Notes under the pieces: model-generated
Database searches by the model: none
What the model was told of the DNA's origin: nothing
What the model saw: the letters and a program-made list of their open reading frames with translations, nothing else
Shown here: piece after piece, positions 16,523 through 24,236 of the stretch
Layout: each line of letters opens with the position of its first letter
Position numbering within the stretch: position 1 is the first letter of the stretch
Position numbers and translations under genes: made by a program
Assembly (NCBI GenBank): GCA_905480195.1
Contig: CAJQPN010000003.1
Coordinates: 87,755 to 151,754, forward strand
Source: an uncultured Acidimicrobiales bacterium
Lineage (GTDB): Bacteria > Actinomycetota > Acidimicrobiia > Acidimicrobiales > Aldehydirespiratoraceae
Direction: 5' to 3'
Length of the DNA stretch: 64,000 nt

Positions 16523-17359
16523 TCAGTGTCGCCGATAGTGGAGAATGGTGCTCATCGTGTCCGCCAGGCGTCGGTTGCCCTTCACGTCGTGCGCTCGCAG
16601 TATCCGACAGCCGAGCGCAATTCCCAGCGCGTGGGCACCGAACGTCACTTCGCGCCGATCATTGACCTCAGTGCTCGCAAGCTCACCGAGAAAACCTTTG
16701 TTGGACGCAGAGAGAAAGACTGGGAAACCAAGGGCGACCAGGTCATCGCTGTGGTGAAGCAGCTCGGTCGACATCGCCGGGGTCTTTCCGAGGTCAAGGC
16801 CGGCGTCCACCATGATCCGCTCAGGCGCAACGCCAGCCGCGAGTGCTTGGTCGGCCCGCACCCGGAGAAAGTCGGTGACCTCGCGACGAACATTGTCGTA
16901 GATCGGATTCGGATCGGGTATTCGGGGGCCGATACGCACGTGCGTCGCAACGACTGATGCGCTGTGGCGCACAGCCACAGGCAAGAAGTCAGGGTCAGCA
17001 AACCCGCTGATGTCGTTCCCGATGCAAGCACCGGCCCGGCATGACTCGTCGAAGACCGAAGCGCGAAAGGTATCGACCGAGATCGGCAGGTCGAATCTCG
17101 TTCGGAGTGCCTCGACTGCAGGAACGACTCGGTCCAACTCCTCTTGCACGGTGACTTCGGGGCCCGGCCCGGCCTTGGAACCTCCGACGTCGAGAAAGTC
17201 CGCACCTTCGTCTACGAGTTGCTCAGCCTTGGCGAGAAAGTCGTCGAAAGCCCAATACTGGCCCCCGTCGTAGAAGGAGTCCGGCGTGCGGTTGAGGATG
17301 CCCATCACGAGCGCCCGCGTCGTGATGTCGAACCGGGTGCTACCGAGATCCACGAACAT
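16523..17359 (-). CDS. folP: Dihydropteroate synthase
   Basis: The 278-residue TIM-barrel enzyme joins p-aminobenzoate to 6-hydroxymethyl-dihydropterin diphosphate in folate synthesis. Signatures include MGILNRTPDSFYDGG (19-33), DVGGSKAGPGPE (the phosphate/pABA loop; Gly-Gly-Ser replaces the usual GGES/GGxS variants), PISVDTF, and GNDISG. The late GFPVFLSASNKGFLGEL matches the Ser/Lys active-site strand. It starts 27 bases after the putative selenoprotein gene. Confidence 0.93.
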   Translation of the reverse strand: MFVDLGSTRFDITTRALVMGILNRTPDSFYDGGQYWAFDDFLAKAEQLVDEGADFLDVGGSKAGPGPEVTVQEELDRVVPAVEALRTRFDLPISVDTFRASVFDESCRAGACIGNDISGFADPDFLPVAVRHSASVVATHVRIGPRIPDPNPIYDNVRREVTDFLRVRADQALAAGVAPERIMVDAGLDLGKTPAMSTELLHHSDDLVALGFPVFLSASNKGFLGELASTEVNDRREVTFGAHALGIALGCRILRAHDVKGNRRLADTMSTILHYRRH

Positions 17360-17386: not shown

Positions 17387-18469
17387 TCAGCTGGAGGCTC
17401 CGCCGAACAACGAAATCGGGTCGTTGGCCCCGCCAGCGACGACTGCCCGTAGATCGGAGTTGCCTGCCCCTGCGAACGAGTCAAGATCGAGCTGACCGCG
17501 GATCTCGGTGGAGGCCGAAGCAAGGCCGTCGTCGATCGGGATTCCCGTGCCGTCCGCCACTCGGACCAAGCCAGAAAAGGCGGCAACGGTGGCTGCGGCT
17601 TGCGCTGCGCCATCCATTCCAACAGCGGCAATCAGTGCCCTACGCAACCCACCAAGCGACGCACCCTTCACTGCGGCCTCGGCGAAGGCGAGAAGTTCGG
17701 CTCCGCCAGCCATTCCCGTCGCTGCCGGGTCACCCGAACCGACAGCGGTGTCGAGATCGACCTCAATCCCCATCGCATCACTGCTCGCACGGAGCAGCGT
17801 CGTGTGAGCCGTTGTTCAATAAAAGCACTCGTTCATCGCTGCCACCCTCGCCGCCACGAGCTCGACCTGAGGGCGCGACAATGGGGTCTTCCAGACGAGC
17901 TCGTCAAAGCCTGCCGCCGAGTACATCGGACGCACGAGGGTGTAGAAGGTCGCATTCGCCGTCGGGACCTGGCTGAGCGCACGCGCGACGTTTGCGAACG
18001 GAAACGGTTCGAGCATCTTCACGTGGGCGCCGATATCACCGAGCCCATCCGGGGTGTCTCGTGACGGTTCGCCGGGTTCGGCCGCTGTTACGACGGGTAC
18101 GACGCCGACACCGACCGCATCAGCAAAGAGGCGCAACGCAACGGCCACAGCGGTCGTGCCGACGAGCTCGACGTAGGGCCCCTCGCCTAGGTCGCCGATC
18201 TGCTCCGCGGCCCACCCGGCGTCAACCGATCCCGGGTCACTGGCGATCCGATCGATGACCGCACGCGCAGAAAGCCCGAGGATCTCGGTGGAATCGGGCA
18301 GCTCGTGGTGCCAGGGCGCGGAGCTGCGCTGTCGGCTCCGTGCATCAGCCCGAGCGACAATTGCGCGCACCTCATCGGCGTCGAACCAGGTACCACTCAC
18401 ACCAAGCCGAGCCCGAGTCGCCTCGACCGCAGCTGCGTACTCGTGGCCGATCGAGATCATGGCCATCAC
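17387..18469 (-). CDS. AhpD-like (carboxymuconolactone decarboxylase-fold) protein; putative selenoprotein with in-frame UGA at 17816-17818
   Basis: One reading frame runs from ATG 18469 to the stop at 17387, interrupted by a single TGA (17816-17818). Ignoring the UGA gives two fragments, 217 residues (17816-18469) and a later one beginning MGIEVDL (17387-17773). Reading it as Sec gives 360 residues with NECFYUTTAH. Glu203, Cys215, Sec218 and His222 have the exact spacing of the AhpD catalytic residues (E-x11-C-x2-C-x3-H; Mtb Glu118/Cys130/Cys133/His137). The downstream part (RVADGTGIPIDDG) continues the fold. An upstream segment near residue 95-120 (PYVELVGTTAVAVALRLFADA) looks like a degenerate first repeat. 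A SECIS-like hairpin follows the UGA. Probable role: thiol/selenol peroxidase or redox enzyme, substrate unknown. The start overlaps the comEC stop by four bases. Alternative: a nonsense mutation or sequencing error. Confidence 0.8.
17779..17799 (-). promoter_or_regulatory. SECIS-like mRNA hairpin downstream of the in-frame UGA
   Basis: Beginning 16 nt after the UGA, the mRNA reads CG-CUGCUC-CGUGC-GAGCAG-UG. It forms an 8-bp stem (six Watson-Crick pairs, one G-U, one C-G) closed by a 5-nt loop containing GU. Bacterial SECIS elements are short stem-loops just after UGA with an apical GU that SelB contacts. The loop here is ~25 nt from the UGA, within the usual range. It lies inside the coding sequence, as bacterial SECIS must. 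Confidence 0.6.
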
Positions 18470-20247
18470 ACCTCCTCGGATTCATCGTTACACGGGAAGG
18501 TGTCAGCGGGACAGACGACCAATTGCGACTCGTCGTGATCGGCCAACCGCACGACCAACCCAGCGACCTGACGAGCAACACCCGCATGCACCGATGAGGC
18601 TCCAGGCACACGGTGCAAAGGCGGCGCAAGGATCGTCTCGGTGCCATAGCGATCGACAAGGGAGACAACGGCAAACGCATCAGAGGCATCTCCGTCGGTG
18701 GCAATGATCGCGTCGACTCGCCGCACCCCCGCTTCCCGCACCCGCTTGACGACGTCGCCGGGTCGCTGTGGATCGTTCAGCACCAAGACGATGCGATCAC
18801 CCGACGCAACCACTGTCACGCCCGCTCCGACCGTCGACTGACCTTGGCGCAACTGCGGAACTGCTCCGATCGCCGAAGCAACGACGACGGCGATCGTGAC
18901 CATGGCGCACAGGCGACTCGATCGGCGACCGCGAACGATGACCCCCAATGCTGCGGCGGTCACAAGCAGCGGCACTGGTCCGAGCATGGCTGACGGGGCA
19001 AGTGCAGCATGGCGGGCCACCCAACGAACCCAGGTGACGAGGACCTCAGTCGGCCAGTGAACGACTTCTGCCACCGGCCCACCAACTGCGCCGGCGAAGA
19101 GCCCAGCCGTGCAGCCCCACATCATGATCGGGCCCGAAGCGGGCCCGGCCAAGAGGTTGGCGGGAAGGCTTGCAAGTGGCAGCGGTCCGAAGGTGAAAAC
19201 CAGGAGCGGGGATACCGCCAGTTGAGCCGCAATCGTGGTCGCCACCGCAGTTCGGAAGAACAACGGGCCCGGCACTCGATCGATGAACGGCTGCGAAAAC
19301 CAGACAATCCCTGCCGTCGCGGCGACCGAAAGCCGAAATGCAAGCACGTGCACGAGGAATGGATCAGCAAGGACAAGGCAAGCAACAGCGATCGAAAGTG
19401 CGCGGCGTCCGTCGACCGGCGTGCCAAAAGCTGATGCTCCAAGACCGACCCCGGCCATCCCGACAGCGCGCAACACCGATGGTTCGAAGCGGGTCAGCAG
19501 CGCGAAGAATGCGAGAACGCTGAGCAGGACGAGCAGCCGAGGTCCGGGACGAAACCGGCCAACAAGCGGCATCAAAACAGCAATGACGAAGGCGACGTTT
19601 TGGCCTGAAACCACGAGCAGATGACCAAGACCGGCAGCCCGGAAGTCGTCAGCAGTGACCGCCGACTGTGCCCGATCGTCGCCGATGACCATGCCGAGGA
19701 AAATCGCACGGTCATCGCGGCCGAGCGCTGCGACACCACCGCTGAGTAATCGTCGCACGCTGTTGGCCAGCCGGGCGACGGGAGATCCGAAATGGGTGAC
19801 GGGAATGGCCTCAACGCTGATCGTCCCAACCTCGTGACGCCACCGGGCCCACGCATCCCGGCTTCCGATGGGCCGGAATCGGCCCTCGATCCGAAGTTGT
19901 TCGCCGGCCAGAGAATCGTCGAGTCGACCTGCCAGCGGGCCGTGAGCAACGACGGAAACGCGATGCCCTTCCCAGCGCGCGCTGACTCGCATCCCCGCAG
20001 GACCAAACGGCCTCGGATCCGATGTCAGTGTCACCCAGGCATCGATGGGACCAGCGGCTGGCGGATCGAGACCCACGAGCGCAAGGCTTCCGAAAAAAGA
20101 GGAGAGCGAGGCGGCCGCCAGTGCGAGTGTGAGCCATGTGCGTCGGGTGAGCGCCGCCACGACGGCGATGCCAACGACGGCGACGGGCAACGGCCACATC
20201 ACCAGCGCGCCGACCGTCGCTCCGATCGCTGCGGCGTGGGCCCTCAA
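18466..20247 (-). CDS. comEC: ComEC/Rec2-type DNA-uptake channel
   Basis: The 593-residue polytopic membrane protein has an N-terminal DUF4131-like region with an OB-like soluble segment (about 65-150). The competence core begins with GLGHLLVVSGQNVAFVIAV (about 225-245), the family signature. The C-terminal extracytoplasmic domain is short and lacks the HxHxDH zinc motif of the metallo-beta-lactamase domain, so any nuclease activity is probably lost. The protein is shorter than the ~750 residues of Bacillus ComEC. ComEC moves single-stranded DNA across the membrane in transformation. It overlaps comEA and the AhpD-like gene by four bases each. Confidence 0.9.
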   Translation of the reverse strand: MRAHAAAIGATVGALVMWPLPVAVVGIAVVAALTRRTWLTLALAAASLSSFFGSLALVGLDPPAAGPIDAWVTLTSDPRPFGPAGMRVSARWEGHRVSVVAHGPLAGRLDDSLAGEQLRIEGRFRPIGSRDAWARWRHEVGTISVEAIPVTHFGSPVARLANSVRRLLSGGVAALGRDDRAIFLGMVIGDDRAQSAVTADDFRAAGLGHLLVVSGQNVAFVIAVLMPLVGRFRPGPRLLVLLSVLAFFALLTRFEPSVLRAVGMAGVGLGASAFGTPVDGRRALSIAVACLVLADPFLVHVLAFRLSVAATAGIVWFSQPFIDRVPGPLFFRTAVATTIAAQLAVSPLLVFTFGPLPLASLPANLLAGPASGPIMMWGCTAGLFAGAVGGPVAEVVHWPTEVLVTWVRWVARHAALAPSAMLGPVPLLVTAAALGVIVRGRRSSRLCAMVTIAVVVASAIGAVPQLRQGQSTVGAGVTVVASGDRIVLVLNDPQRPGDVVKRVREAGVRRVDAIIATDGDASDAFAVVSLVDRYGTETILAPPLHRVPGASSVHAGVARQVAGLVVRLADHDESQLVVCPADTFPCNDESEEV

Positions 20248-21001: not shown

Positions 21002-21703
21002 TCAGAACAGCGCAGTGCTCAACTTGCGCCGCCACTCGGGAGTGCGCGGATCGTCAGGCCCGAGGACCTCGAGCAGGTCAACGAACTTCTGACGGTCATC
21101 GTCGTTGAGCTTCACGGTCGGGAGAAGTGACGTAAGGGTGGCATCGATGTCAGTGACGGTGTCGCCATTGGTTCGAGCCAAGGCCCGCAGACGCCGCGTC
21201 TCGGGCGTCTCAGGGATTTTGTCGAGCAGAGCGATCCCTTGGTCGACCTGCCCTTCATCGATGAGTGCGGCGGCGAGCGCCGTGAGGACGTCAGGGTTGT
21301 CGGGCTCGAGCGCGAACGCCGCGTTGAGCGATTCGACGTCGCCGATCTCGAGCAGACGCTCAATCTCGTTTTGTTCCTCGGTCGGCAAGAGCTTCGCAAC
21401 GAACTCGCGAACTTGGGCTTCACCTTGAGCCCCCATGAAGCCATCAACCACCTGGCCGTCCTTCATTGCGTACACGGCGGGGATCGACTGGACCTGGAAC
21501 GCCTGTGCGACACTCGTATTGGCATCGACATCGACCTTCGCGAGTTCAACCTTGCCGTTCGTATCGCCGATGACCTTGTCGAGGATCGGGCCGAGCTGCT
21601 TGCACGGACCGCACCACTCGGCCCACAGATCGATCACGACAGGGACCTGGTGCGACCGCTCGATCACGGCGGTCTCGAACGTTGCGTCGGTTACGTCGGC
21701 CAT
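21002..21703 (-). CDS. Thioredoxin-domain protein with TPR tail (CnoX/YbbN-like)
   Basis: The 233-residue product starts MADVTDATFETAV and has a thioredoxin fold (1-105) with WCGPCK (Cys31, Cys34) and a cis-Pro in QSIPAVYA. A C-terminal helical region (about 110-233) has TPR-like repeats (EIERLLEIGDVESLNAAFAL, VLTALAAALIDEGQVDQGIAL). This matches the YbbN/CnoX family of redox-active holdase chaperones, though the intact CxxC means ordinary thiol-disulfide activity is also possible. The ATG is at 21701-21703, divergent from the PAC2 gene. Confidence 0.9.
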   Translation of the reverse strand: MADVTDATFETAVIERSHQVPVVIDLWAEWCGPCKQLGPILDKVIGDTNGKVELAKVDVDANTSVAQAFQVQSIPAVYAMKDGQVVDGFMGAQGEAQVREFVAKLLPTEEQNEIERLLEIGDVESLNAAFALEPDNPDVLTALAAALIDEGQVDQGIALLDKIPETPETRRLRALARTNGDTVTDIDATLTSLLPTVKLNDDDRQKFVDLLEVLGPDDPRTPEWRRKLSTALF

Positions 21704-21750
21704 GGTGCCGACCAACGTATCGGATACCGGCCAGTTCCCGGCGGGCGCGT

Positions 21751-21763
21751 CCCAACGATTGGG
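21751..21763. promoter_or_regulatory. Inverted repeat in the thioredoxin/PAC2 divergent promoter region
   Basis: CCCAA-CGA-TTGGG is a perfect 5-bp inverted repeat around three bases. It lies between two divergent starts (21703 and 21782) and three bases before a TACTCT hexamer (21766-21771) that could be the -10 of the PAC2 gene. It is short, so chance is possible. Confidence 0.3.
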
Positions 21764-21781
21764 CGTACTCTCAGCGTCACG

Positions 21782-22660
21782 ATGTCTCGCCCTGTCGACC
21801 CCGCCGAGTTGTACACATTGTTGGCGACGCCGTCGCTCGATGATCCGGTCCTCCTGATCCACCTCGCCGGATGGATCGATGCCAGCGGCTGCGCAGCAGA
21901 TGCCCGCAAAACGATTCTCGAGCAAATCAACCCGACACCGGTCGCACGTTTCGAGACCGAGTGGCTCCTCGATCACCGGGCTCGCCGACCGATGATGCAC
22001 ATTGTCGAAGGGGTTACCACGGCGCTCGACTGGCCCGAGATCAAACTCGTCTGCGGCAGCGACAGCACCGGGAACGATGTGCTGTTCTTGCACGGTGTCG
22101 AGCCCGACCACAACTGGCGCACGTTCTGTGAGGCCGTCGTCGAGCTCGCCCAACGCTTCGGTGTACGCCGCGTCATCGGCCTCGGTGCCTACCCGGCTTC
22201 GTCGCCTCACACCCGACCATCTCGCCTTTCCGCTACTGCGTCTTCGCCGGAGCTCGCCGTGCTCGGGTTCACTCCTGCGACCCTCGACGTGCCGGCCGGC
22301 ATGCAAGCAGCGGTTGAGTTTGCGGCCCATGAGGCGGGAATCCCCGCCGTTGGGCTCTGGGCACAAGTCCCGCACTACCTCTCGGGGGCGAACTATGCGC
22401 CGGCGACGCAAGCATTGATCGAGGGTCTGGTGGTCGCCGGAGGCCTCGTCTTCGACAGCAGCGACCTTGCTGCGGAAGCATTGGCCACGCGGAGCCGTCT
22501 CAACGGCCTCGTGGCCGACGATGATTCGCACCGCAGCATGCTCCACGTACTCGAGCGCCAATACGACAACGCCATGGAGGTCGAAGCGTCGATCAGTGGT
22601 ACTGACGTCGCGGCCGAGATCGCCGAGTTCTTGCGTAACCAGACCGACGACGACCGCTGA
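21782..22660 (+). CDS. PAC2-family protein (proteasome-assembly-chaperone-like)
   Basis: The 292-residue product has the actinobacterial PAC2 layout: VLLIHLAGWIDASGCAADA near the N-terminus, then LVCGSDSTGNDVLFLHGVEPDHNWRTF-like and VIGLGAYPASSPHTRPSRLSATAS-like strands, and the final ATP-grasp-adjacent motif GIPAVGLWAQVPHYLSG. A C-terminal acidic helix follows. Homologues are often near proteasome genes in actinobacteria, but their role is not settled; no proteasome gene lies here. The start is ATG at 21782; TACTCT ten bases upstream suggests a very short leader. Confidence 0.88.
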   Translation: MSRPVDPAELYTLLATPSLDDPVLLIHLAGWIDASGCAADARKTILEQINPTPVARFETEWLLDHRARRPMMHIVEGVTTALDWPEIKLVCGSDSTGNDVLFLHGVEPDHNWRTFCEAVVELAQRFGVRRVIGLGAYPASSPHTRPSRLSATASSPELAVLGFTPATLDVPAGMQAAVEFAAHEAGIPAVGLWAQVPHYLSGANYAPATQALIEGLVVAGGLVFDSSDLAAEALATRSRLNGLVADDDSHRSMLHVLERQYDNAMEVEASISGTDVAAEIAEFLRNQTDDDR

Positions 22661-22661
22661 C

Positions 22662-24236
22662 CTAACGGTCCAGTTCCCAGAGCGTCCCCTGGCTGAACCG
22701 GGCCACGAGTCTCGACCCCTCCGGCGGGCTCGTATCCAACCCGAGCAGCGCATGGGTGGTCTTTGGTGTGCGCGTGATCACGCTGCGGTCAAACCCCACG
22801 TTCCAAACCAGCGCATTCGTGAGACTCGAAGACACACGACCCGTGTCGACAAAGAGTTCCCCGATGTTGAGGCTCGGGTTGAGGCGCTCGTTGACTTCAC
22901 CCGACGCAGTGGATTCATGCAGTTGATCGAGGGTCTCCAGTCCGCTGTGGGCTCCCCACAAACAAGCGAGAACGAGGAGCAACCCCGCTGCCTCGATCCG
23001 CCAACGACAAAGCCCCCACGCCGCCAGACCGACGACGACGGCAACCGCGGCTGCAGCTCCAGGCTCGAAGATGTCGTTCCCGTACGGTGCACCGCCGACC
23101 TCGACCCCGAGCATCATCACGGGGGACCGGGCCGACGCCCAGGTGTCACCGGGTCCGTTCCATGCGGCGACGATCCCGCCGAGCGCAGGCGCGCCGACAA
23201 GCAAAAGCGCTGCACCCCTCCCGCGCAATTGGTGCAAGGAGGCGACACCGACCGCAACAAAGACCGGAGCCATCACTTCGATGTATCGACCATGAAGCCA
23301 CTTGTCGGCCCGTGGAATGCCGGTCAGGAACCAGGCGGCGACGACCAGCACTCCGAAACCAACGGCGAGAACTGACCATCCATTCGTCCTCGATCGGGCT
23401 AACACGACGATGCCCCACATTGCGAGCCCGGTACCGGCCAAGACCACATAGGTGAGCGCGCCCAGACCGTGTTGGAGCATCTGCATCGCTTCCCCGAGAC
23501 CACGCCGAGACGCCAGGTCGACTGCGTCATAGGTGCCGGGGTCGTCGAATGTCGCAGTGGAGAGTGATCGACGGAGCCACTCGACGAACGACAGCCCGAC
23601 AACGCCGGACACCACCACTGCCGCAGTCGCACCCTTCCCCCGCGACCTCACCGACCATCCACTCGCCACGATGACGACCGCCGCCGAAACGCCGAGTCGC
23701 GGATGCCCTGCGAACAGCAGCACTGCGGCGGCGACCGCTCCCCACGCCGACCGCGTTGTCGCCGCCTCGAGGGCGTGAAACAACGCCAACAACGCCAACA
23801 CGACCAAGAGCGCAAGGAGCCGTTCCGTCCACACAATCGACGAGGTGAGCAGCGCCGCCGGCAGGACAGCGCCAACGATCGCGGCGACAAGCACCCGGCG
23901 ATGATCGATCTCGGGGAACAGTCGCCGCAGCAGCGAGGTGAGCGCCGGAACGGTCGCTGCGCCGGCCAGCGCGTTCACCATTCGTGCGTAGGTGATCATC
24001 CCGTCACCTTCGAGCCCCAAGAGCCACCCCGGTGCAAGAAGCATGGGATATAGCGGGCCATACGGGGACTGTGCAGGCATCGGCGCACCACCCTCGCCTC
24101 CGATGGTGCGGCCCATGGCGAGATAGGCGATGTCGTCGATGGTCAGGAGCGGCCCCGGCGGAGCGAGAGCGAATGCGAAACCCACCAGGAACACCGCACT
24201 CGTCGTGCCCACCAGCCAACGGGTCCAGGCCGACAT
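22662..24236 (-). CDS. Polytopic membrane protein, probably GT-C-type glycosyltransferase
   Basis: The 524-residue product begins MSAWTRWLVGTTSAVFLVGF and has about 11-12 hydrophobic segments over residues 8-440. The large extracytoplasmic loop after helix 1 contains TIDDIAYLAMGR and MPAQSPYGPLYPML. The acidic IDD in the first loop, the YGPLYP motif and the repeated helices resemble lipid-linked-sugar glycosyltransferases of the GT-C class (PMT/ArnT-like). I cannot assign a substrate. A soluble C-terminal tail (about 445-524) follows. The start ATG at 24236 has GAGGCG upstream. Its stop lies one base from the convergent PAC2 stop. Confidence 0.65.
   Translation of the reverse strand: MSAWTRWLVGTTSAVFLVGFAFALAPPGPLLTIDDIAYLAMGRTIGGEGGAPMPAQSPYGPLYPMLLAPGWLLGLEGDGMITYARMVNALAGAATVPALTSLLRRLFPEIDHRRVLVAAIVGAVLPAALLTSSIVWTERLLALLVVLALLALFHALEAATTRSAWGAVAAAVLLFAGHPRLGVSAAVVIVASGWSVRSRGKGATAAVVVSGVVGLSFVEWLRRSLSTATFDDPGTYDAVDLASRRGLGEAMQMLQHGLGALTYVVLAGTGLAMWGIVVLARSRTNGWSVLAVGFGVLVVAAWFLTGIPRADKWLHGRYIEVMAPVFVAVGVASLHQLRGRGAALLLVGAPALGGIVAAWNGPGDTWASARSPVMMLGVEVGGAPYGNDIFEPGAAAAVAVVVGLAAWGLCRWRIEAAGLLLVLACLWGAHSGLETLDQLHESTASGEVNERLNPSLNIGELFVDTGRVSSSLTNALVWNVGFDRSVITRTPKTTHALLGLDTSPPEGSRLVARFSQGTLWELDR

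Follow-up and report, generated by a model that had tools for sequence, protein, structure and literature searches.

The window analyzed here, i.e., the whole 64,000-nucleotide (nt) stretch of contig CAJQPN010000003.1 from an uncultured Acidimicrobiales bacterium, carries on its minus strand (18466 to 17387) a gene that is very probably translated through an in-frame UGA as selenocysteine (Sec) and whose product, a member of the NF041238 family, is predicted to be an alkyl hydroperoxide or disulfide reductase. The elements of this reading that come directly from sequence are the open frame, the UGA and its conservation, a hairpin past the UGA with locked silent sites, the Sec machinery of the genome and the match with the family profile.

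Reading frame, active site and family

The frame, located on the minus strand, opens with GTG 18469, ends with the TGA at 17389-17387 and comprises 361 codons, the last being the stop; its sole internal stop is the TGA at 17818-17816, i.e., codon 218 when GTG 18469 is counted as residue 1, the numbering used throughout. The preliminary description of this DNA had proposed such a frame of 361 codons, broken by a single TGA, between 17387 and 18469, and had placed the UGA at the second Cys of an E-x11-C-x2-U-x3-H site (CFYU); both proposals are borne out by the translation, the strand, left unstated there, being the minus one. A plus-strand reading over the same interval is ruled out by two TAG stops in addition to TGA. 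The start codon is likely ATG 18466, which has AGGAGG directly upstream and one base in common with the stop codon of a comEC-like gene.

The sequence around codon 218, ELVAARVAAMNECFYUTTAH, displays the exact spacing Glu203-x11-Cys215-x2-UGA218-x3-His222 with Tyr217 in place, and Cys215 is the only cysteine of the translation. The proton relay of Pseudomonas aeruginosa PA0269 consists, in the accessible part of PMC3141380, of Glu, Cys, Tyr or His, Cys and His; these five positions are all present in the window protein, with Sec replacing the second Cys, and the closest solved sequence relatives, identified by PDB sequence matches, are AhpD-like proteins.

The NF041238 profile matches residues 9-333 with 248.4 bits (curated cut-off 175) and all 48 members of alignment A5 match it at E ≤ 1e-10. 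This profile is NCBIfam NF041238.1 (AhpD_rel_CFYUT), an equivalog-level model of an "alkylhydroperoxidase-related (seleno)protein", and its CFYUT motif is found at residues 215-219, with the UGA at the U; the CMD domain (PF02627) is matched with 26 bits against a gathering cut-off of 23. The family is traced in the accessible part of a 2026 review (PMC13188914) to the Sargasso Sea "hypothetical protein 1" with its CxxU, and four sequences of this protein, with a CXXU motif and a selenocysteine insertion sequence (SECIS), are reported in the accessible text of the 2005 Sargasso Sea selenoproteome (PMC1088965). Since the model exists and three relatives among the matches listed are already named "(seleno)protein", no new family is involved and the window gene is a new member of an already known selenoprotein family. 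Thus, of the "unannotated selenoprotein" initially suggested, the noun stands but the adjective fails in part.

How could such a protein work? The UGA would be read by SelB together with Sec-tRNA, under the direction of the hairpin starting after 16 nt. Of the two lobes predicted for the protein (see below), the C-terminal one would operate like AhpD, with Sec218 as the likely selenolate attacking a hydroperoxide and Cys215 resolving it as a selenenylsulfide, Glu203, Tyr217 and His222 relaying protons; a thiol reductant would then reopen the selenenylsulfide and reset the site. The N-terminal lobe would be non-catalytic and might, at a guess, bind a substrate or a partner. It is possible, if rather unlikely, that the window protein is a selenoprotein of this family but reduces no peroxide, acting instead as a disulfide oxidoreductase, a dehalogenase-like enzyme or a redox switch; the presence of the complete AhpD relay and the AhpD-like nature of the closest solved relatives argue against this.

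Conservation of the UGA codon

In a search of 100 related genomes, own genome included, a protein match was found in 34, and a family member carrying TGA at the matching codon is present in 30 of them; the other four are G036, with a Gly form (L038), G061 and G075, with short AhpD-like proteins, and G079, with a 53-residue match. Whole-genome searches of the 100 genomes and of the phylum yielded 48 TGA, one Gly and no Cys among the readable family loci. The 48 TGA loci span many genera; they include three loci contributed by the phylum search (L095, L096 and L098) and leave out contig 156 of G253, which is over the cut-off and has TGA. Most phylum-search matches fell below the cut-off and, taken as other AhpD-like families, were not counted.

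A Cys-pattern scan of named genomes returned 27 loci: the full-length relatives L068 and L069, both carrying TGC at this position, and 25 others, for which only short AhpD-like frames are listed (179-254 aa, nearly all from Bacteroidota). As the scan used Cys-coding patterns, it could show Cys forms only and its counts give no Sec:Cys ratio. Concerning the residue that homologues carry at position 218, on which the preliminary description had made its proposal depend, it can be said that full-length TGC forms exist and that TGA is far commoner. The two Cys forms score 238.7 (L068) and 143.5 bits (L069) with the NF041238 profile, the latter value being below the cut-off, and both their genomes have tRNA-Sec-like matches (66-69 bits). 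As a separate observation, many of the loci L070-L094, mostly from Bacteroidota, contain two to four different AhpD-like Cys genes inside 12 kb.

In the Gly form (L038:1498-2715, minus strand) Gly occupies the Sec position and CRC replaces NEC, and the genome (G036) has both tRNA-Sec and selB; here the active site has been lost while the Sec trait has been kept. The tree of 50 members (47 Sec, 2 Cys, 1 Gly) joins the Gly form to a Sec form (support 98/90), so that Sec was likely lost in that lineage. A family in which, across the genomes searched, Sec predominates and Cys or Gly occurs rarely represents a natural test of the benefit of Sec in an AhpD site.

The segment past the UGA evolves as protein: the ratio of nonsynonymous to synonymous substitution rates (dN/dS) calculated against the two closest relatives is 0.118 and 0.123 past the UGA, indicating purifying selection, and 0.161 and 0.138 before it.

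The SECIS-like hairpin

The hairpin occupies nt 17-37 past the UGA, with its loop CGUGC at nt 25-29. Its conservation was analyzed in 46 distinct sequences, i.e., the 48 loci minus one with Ns and one duplicate; this set omits six TGA loci of other AhpD-like families (L066, L099, L100, L101, L112, L114) and the two Cys loci. All 46 sequences share a G at position 2 of the loop, the three inner pairs, CTC as the Leu codon of the hairpin (background in these genes 51%), AGY as the Ser codon (background 27%) and a G at nt 30 of the stem, even though six amino acids are represented at codon 10. Pair 19-35 is C-G in 18 sequences, A-U in 20 and mispaired in 5, and the outermost pair is kept in 28 of the 46. 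Overall, the eight pairs are 90% paired as compared to 82% in column shuffles, and none of 2000 shuffles reaches 90%, a result that, the sequences being related, represents support and not a probability. The loop is GGUCU in six loci, which we take to be the loop of E. coli fdhF, an identity that a literature search did not confirm, none of the papers listed containing GGUCU. The Cys form L069 has no hairpin. In the accessible part of PMC1088965 a bacterial SECIS is characterized as a hairpin just past the UGA that is conserved in relatives and whose small apical loop contains a G; these properties are all found here.

The context of codon 218 also speaks against mere chance. A scan for in-frame TGA with at least 20 open codons before and at least 60 after was passed by 185 codons, 10 of which have a Cys three residues away. 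Within this group of 10, to which the hairpin comparison applies, TGA 218 is the only one preceded by a long frame (217 codons vs 28-70) and the only one with an 8-bp hairpin at SECIS distance (5 bp in two, none in seven).

Selenocysteine machinery

The assembly, with 2.78 Mb in 66 contigs and a completeness of 87%, contains tRNA-Sec, selA, selB and selD, the four components for which the preliminary description had suggested a search; the absence of selB or tRNA-Sec would, according to it, have made the proposal of a selenoprotein untenable. The selA and selB genes adjoin on contig 60, whereas selD (contig 3:80795-81721, L016) is located ~6.0 kb before the window start and has an in-frame TGA of its own in HGAGUGC, so that it likely encodes a further selenoprotein. 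A tRNA-Sec match of at least 58 bits is present in 27 of the 30 relatives having the TGA form; the other three (G013, G031 and G041, whose assemblies comprise 380 to 840 contigs) contain selB above the cut-off.

Two additional AhpD-like frames with TGA were noticed in the same genome: a second NF041238 paralogue (contig 48:24663-25562, L061), with CFFU and belonging to the other main clade of the tree, and a third, short frame (contig 5:4366-4917, L145) with CHYU, likely another selenoprotein.

Alternative readings of the UGA

A pseudogene or a sequencing error, in which a Cys codon became or was miscalled TGA and only the front half is made, would require a single step from TGC, and Cys forms do exist; however, TGA at the matching codon in 48 loci of many genera makes a nonsense mutation confined to this genome or a miscalled base unlikely, in keeping with the initial argument that a chance nonsense mutation is improbable, and the purifying selection past the TGA, the hairpin locked at silent sites and the Sec machinery of the genome leave this explanation with hardly any credit.

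A second explanation is suggested by the protein database, which holds as separate entries a front piece (P0002, 216 aa) and a rear piece (P0135, 128 aa), each 99% identical to the corresponding part of the gene. Among the 120 matches listed, 119 front halves end at CFY and one at FIY, the following stop codon not being visible, and in five relatives both halves stand under consecutive locus tags as hypothetical proteins; the named relatives are Actinomycetota or Acidimicrobiales. Such pairs of pieces could mean two proteins by design, with termination at the UGA and restart at the inner ATG 17773. Yet such a split would cut through the AhpD active site, separating Cys215 from His222, the inner ATG is 14 codons past the UGA, beyond His222, and the Cys forms are a single unbroken chain, so that two separate products are extremely improbable. 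The separate entries are instead what would result from gene callers splitting the gene at the TGA, which agrees with the early remark that routine gene calling hides it; the present finding corrects a gene that callers divide in two.

That the UGA is decoded otherwise than as Sec, e.g., as Trp or by near-cognate read-through, would account for the frame remaining open past it, but is barely conceivable given that sense-codon relatives have Cys or Gly and not Trp, that the genome has the Sec machinery and that both the window gene and comEC end in TGA, which is therefore a stop here.

A few data weigh against the interpretation of the gene as a functional Sec-containing reductase of the type described. 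The Gly form, found in a genome that keeps tRNA-Sec and selB, indicates that residue 218 can be lost. The association between the gene and tRNA-Sec is modest (p 0.009, with relatives that are not independent) because most relatives have the trait, tRNA-Sec being present also in 46 of 70 genomes without the gene. In terms of folding energy the hairpin does not stand out from shuffles (z -0.09 to -0.86), and conservation was used instead; furthermore, the Cys form L068 retains most of the hairpin, whose conservation is thus not purely a Sec trait. Finally, no function, substrate or reductant is indicated by the comparison of neighbours in 20 regions and, as to the structure, four of the five AlphaFold models have a pLDDT (predicted local distance difference test) of 67-73 and Foldseek gives no match at E ≤ 0.001.

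Genomic context

The features of the gene and its immediate neighbours are collected in the table. The comparison took in 20 regions around relatives as well as the window and two named loci. The neighbours of the window gene recur in two close relatives only (L125, L126); those recurring in other clades are, with a Pfam match, an error-prone polymerase, a UvrD helicase, aminotransferases and a luciferase-like protein, in addition to four without a Pfam match. A Thioredoxin-TPR protein, which may be a possible reductant, is encoded in the same direction behind a comEA-like gene (window 21002-22753, minus strand). An Rfam scan of the window at the gathering threshold detected two tRNAs and nothing else.

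Table. Position of the selenoprotein gene, its elements and its neighbours in the window
Feature	Position	Strand	Remarks
Selenoprotein gene	17387..18466	-	359 residues from likely ATG 18466; alternative start GTG 18469
In-frame TGA, predicted Sec (residue 218)	17816..17818	-	TGA at matching codon in 48 family loci
AhpD-type active-site stretch	17804..17863	-	Glu203, Cys215, Tyr217, Sec218, His222
SECIS-like hairpin	17779..17799	-	nt 17-37 past UGA; loop CGUGC 17791-17787
Predicted cysteine-free N-terminal AhpD-like lobe	18019..18466	-	~residues 2-151; structure prediction
Predicted catalytic C-terminal AhpD-like lobe	17510..18034	-	~residues 145-320; structure prediction, PDB sequence matches to AhpD-like proteins
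Upstream neighbour, ComEC/Rec2-like	18466..20247	-	stop codon overlaps likely start ATG 18466
Downstream neighbour folP (dihydropteroate synthase)	16523..17359	-	27 bp past selenoprotein gene end, same strand

Predicted fold and comparison with known systems

The original designation "AhpD-like protein" applies to the C-terminal site, but the protein is no plain AhpD, a second, cysteine-free AhpD-like lobe being predicted in front. According to the model, the two lobes would be packed in the manner of Sestrin2, and the C-terminal one would contain the sole Cys-Sec pair. Foldseek ranks a Sestrin2 chain second (E 0.10), the high Z stemming from a second-look aligner. Among the PDB sequence matches up to E 10 (alignments A1 and A3) there is no Sestrin chain, and a search of the genome with the PA26 profile (PF04636) gave no match up to E 10; the exact string DDYDY of the GATOR2 motif was not found in the translation, looser forms not having been sought. 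This two-lobe comparison, which rests on structure prediction, would be a new contribution on a known family and, if the lobe pair is as predicted, links a selenoprotein family that has received little study to the problem of the origin of Sestrins. No selenium version of Sestrin-like two-lobe proteins was found in literature searches, for which subscription papers were mostly outside reach.

From the other members of NF041238 the window protein has no distinguishing difference, and the two-lobe fold is not described in the accessible part of PMC13188914. Single-domain AhpD proteins (D. radiodurans 6k40 and P. aeruginosa PA0269) share relay residues and fold with its C-terminal lobe, but have two Cys where a Cys-Sec pair is found here and no N-terminal lobe in their chain. 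The AhpD-like 1 and 2 selenoproteins of ocean metagenomes (TIGR01926 type), as covered by the accessible text of PMC2398784, resemble it in having CxxU in an AhpD-type site; the 178-position TIGR01926 model matches only its C-terminal part, with 25.5 bits against a cut-off of 81.8.

As to the Sestrins, two AhpD-like lobes in one chain are found in the predicted model of the window protein. However, in human Sestrin2 the catalytic Cys belongs to the N-terminal lobe (PMC4674687, accessible part), whereas the only Cys of the window protein is residue 215, in the C-terminal lobe, where the site contains Sec, and PA26 is not matched. A parallel also exists with the two-lobe analogues of Sestrin described in 2024 from bacteria such as Corynebacterium ureicelerivorans and Comamonas aquatica (PMC11429811), in whose accessible text "selen" appears once, for selenomethionine: compared by description and not by sequence, these likewise have a cysteine-free N-terminal and a catalytic C-terminal lobe, with two cysteines in place of the Cys-Sec pair. 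Speculatively, and against the odds in our estimation, NF041238 might be a selenium branch of a bacterial Sestrin-type fold, consisting of two fused AhpD units, one having retained the catalytic centre and converted it to Cys-Sec and the other having lost its cysteines and become free for sensing or binding, i.e., a mirror image of Sestrin2 with its catalytic N-terminal lobe; if so, the family would represent, still extant, the intermediate that has been proposed on the way to the nutrient sensor of animals, its free lobe tuning a selenoenzyme.
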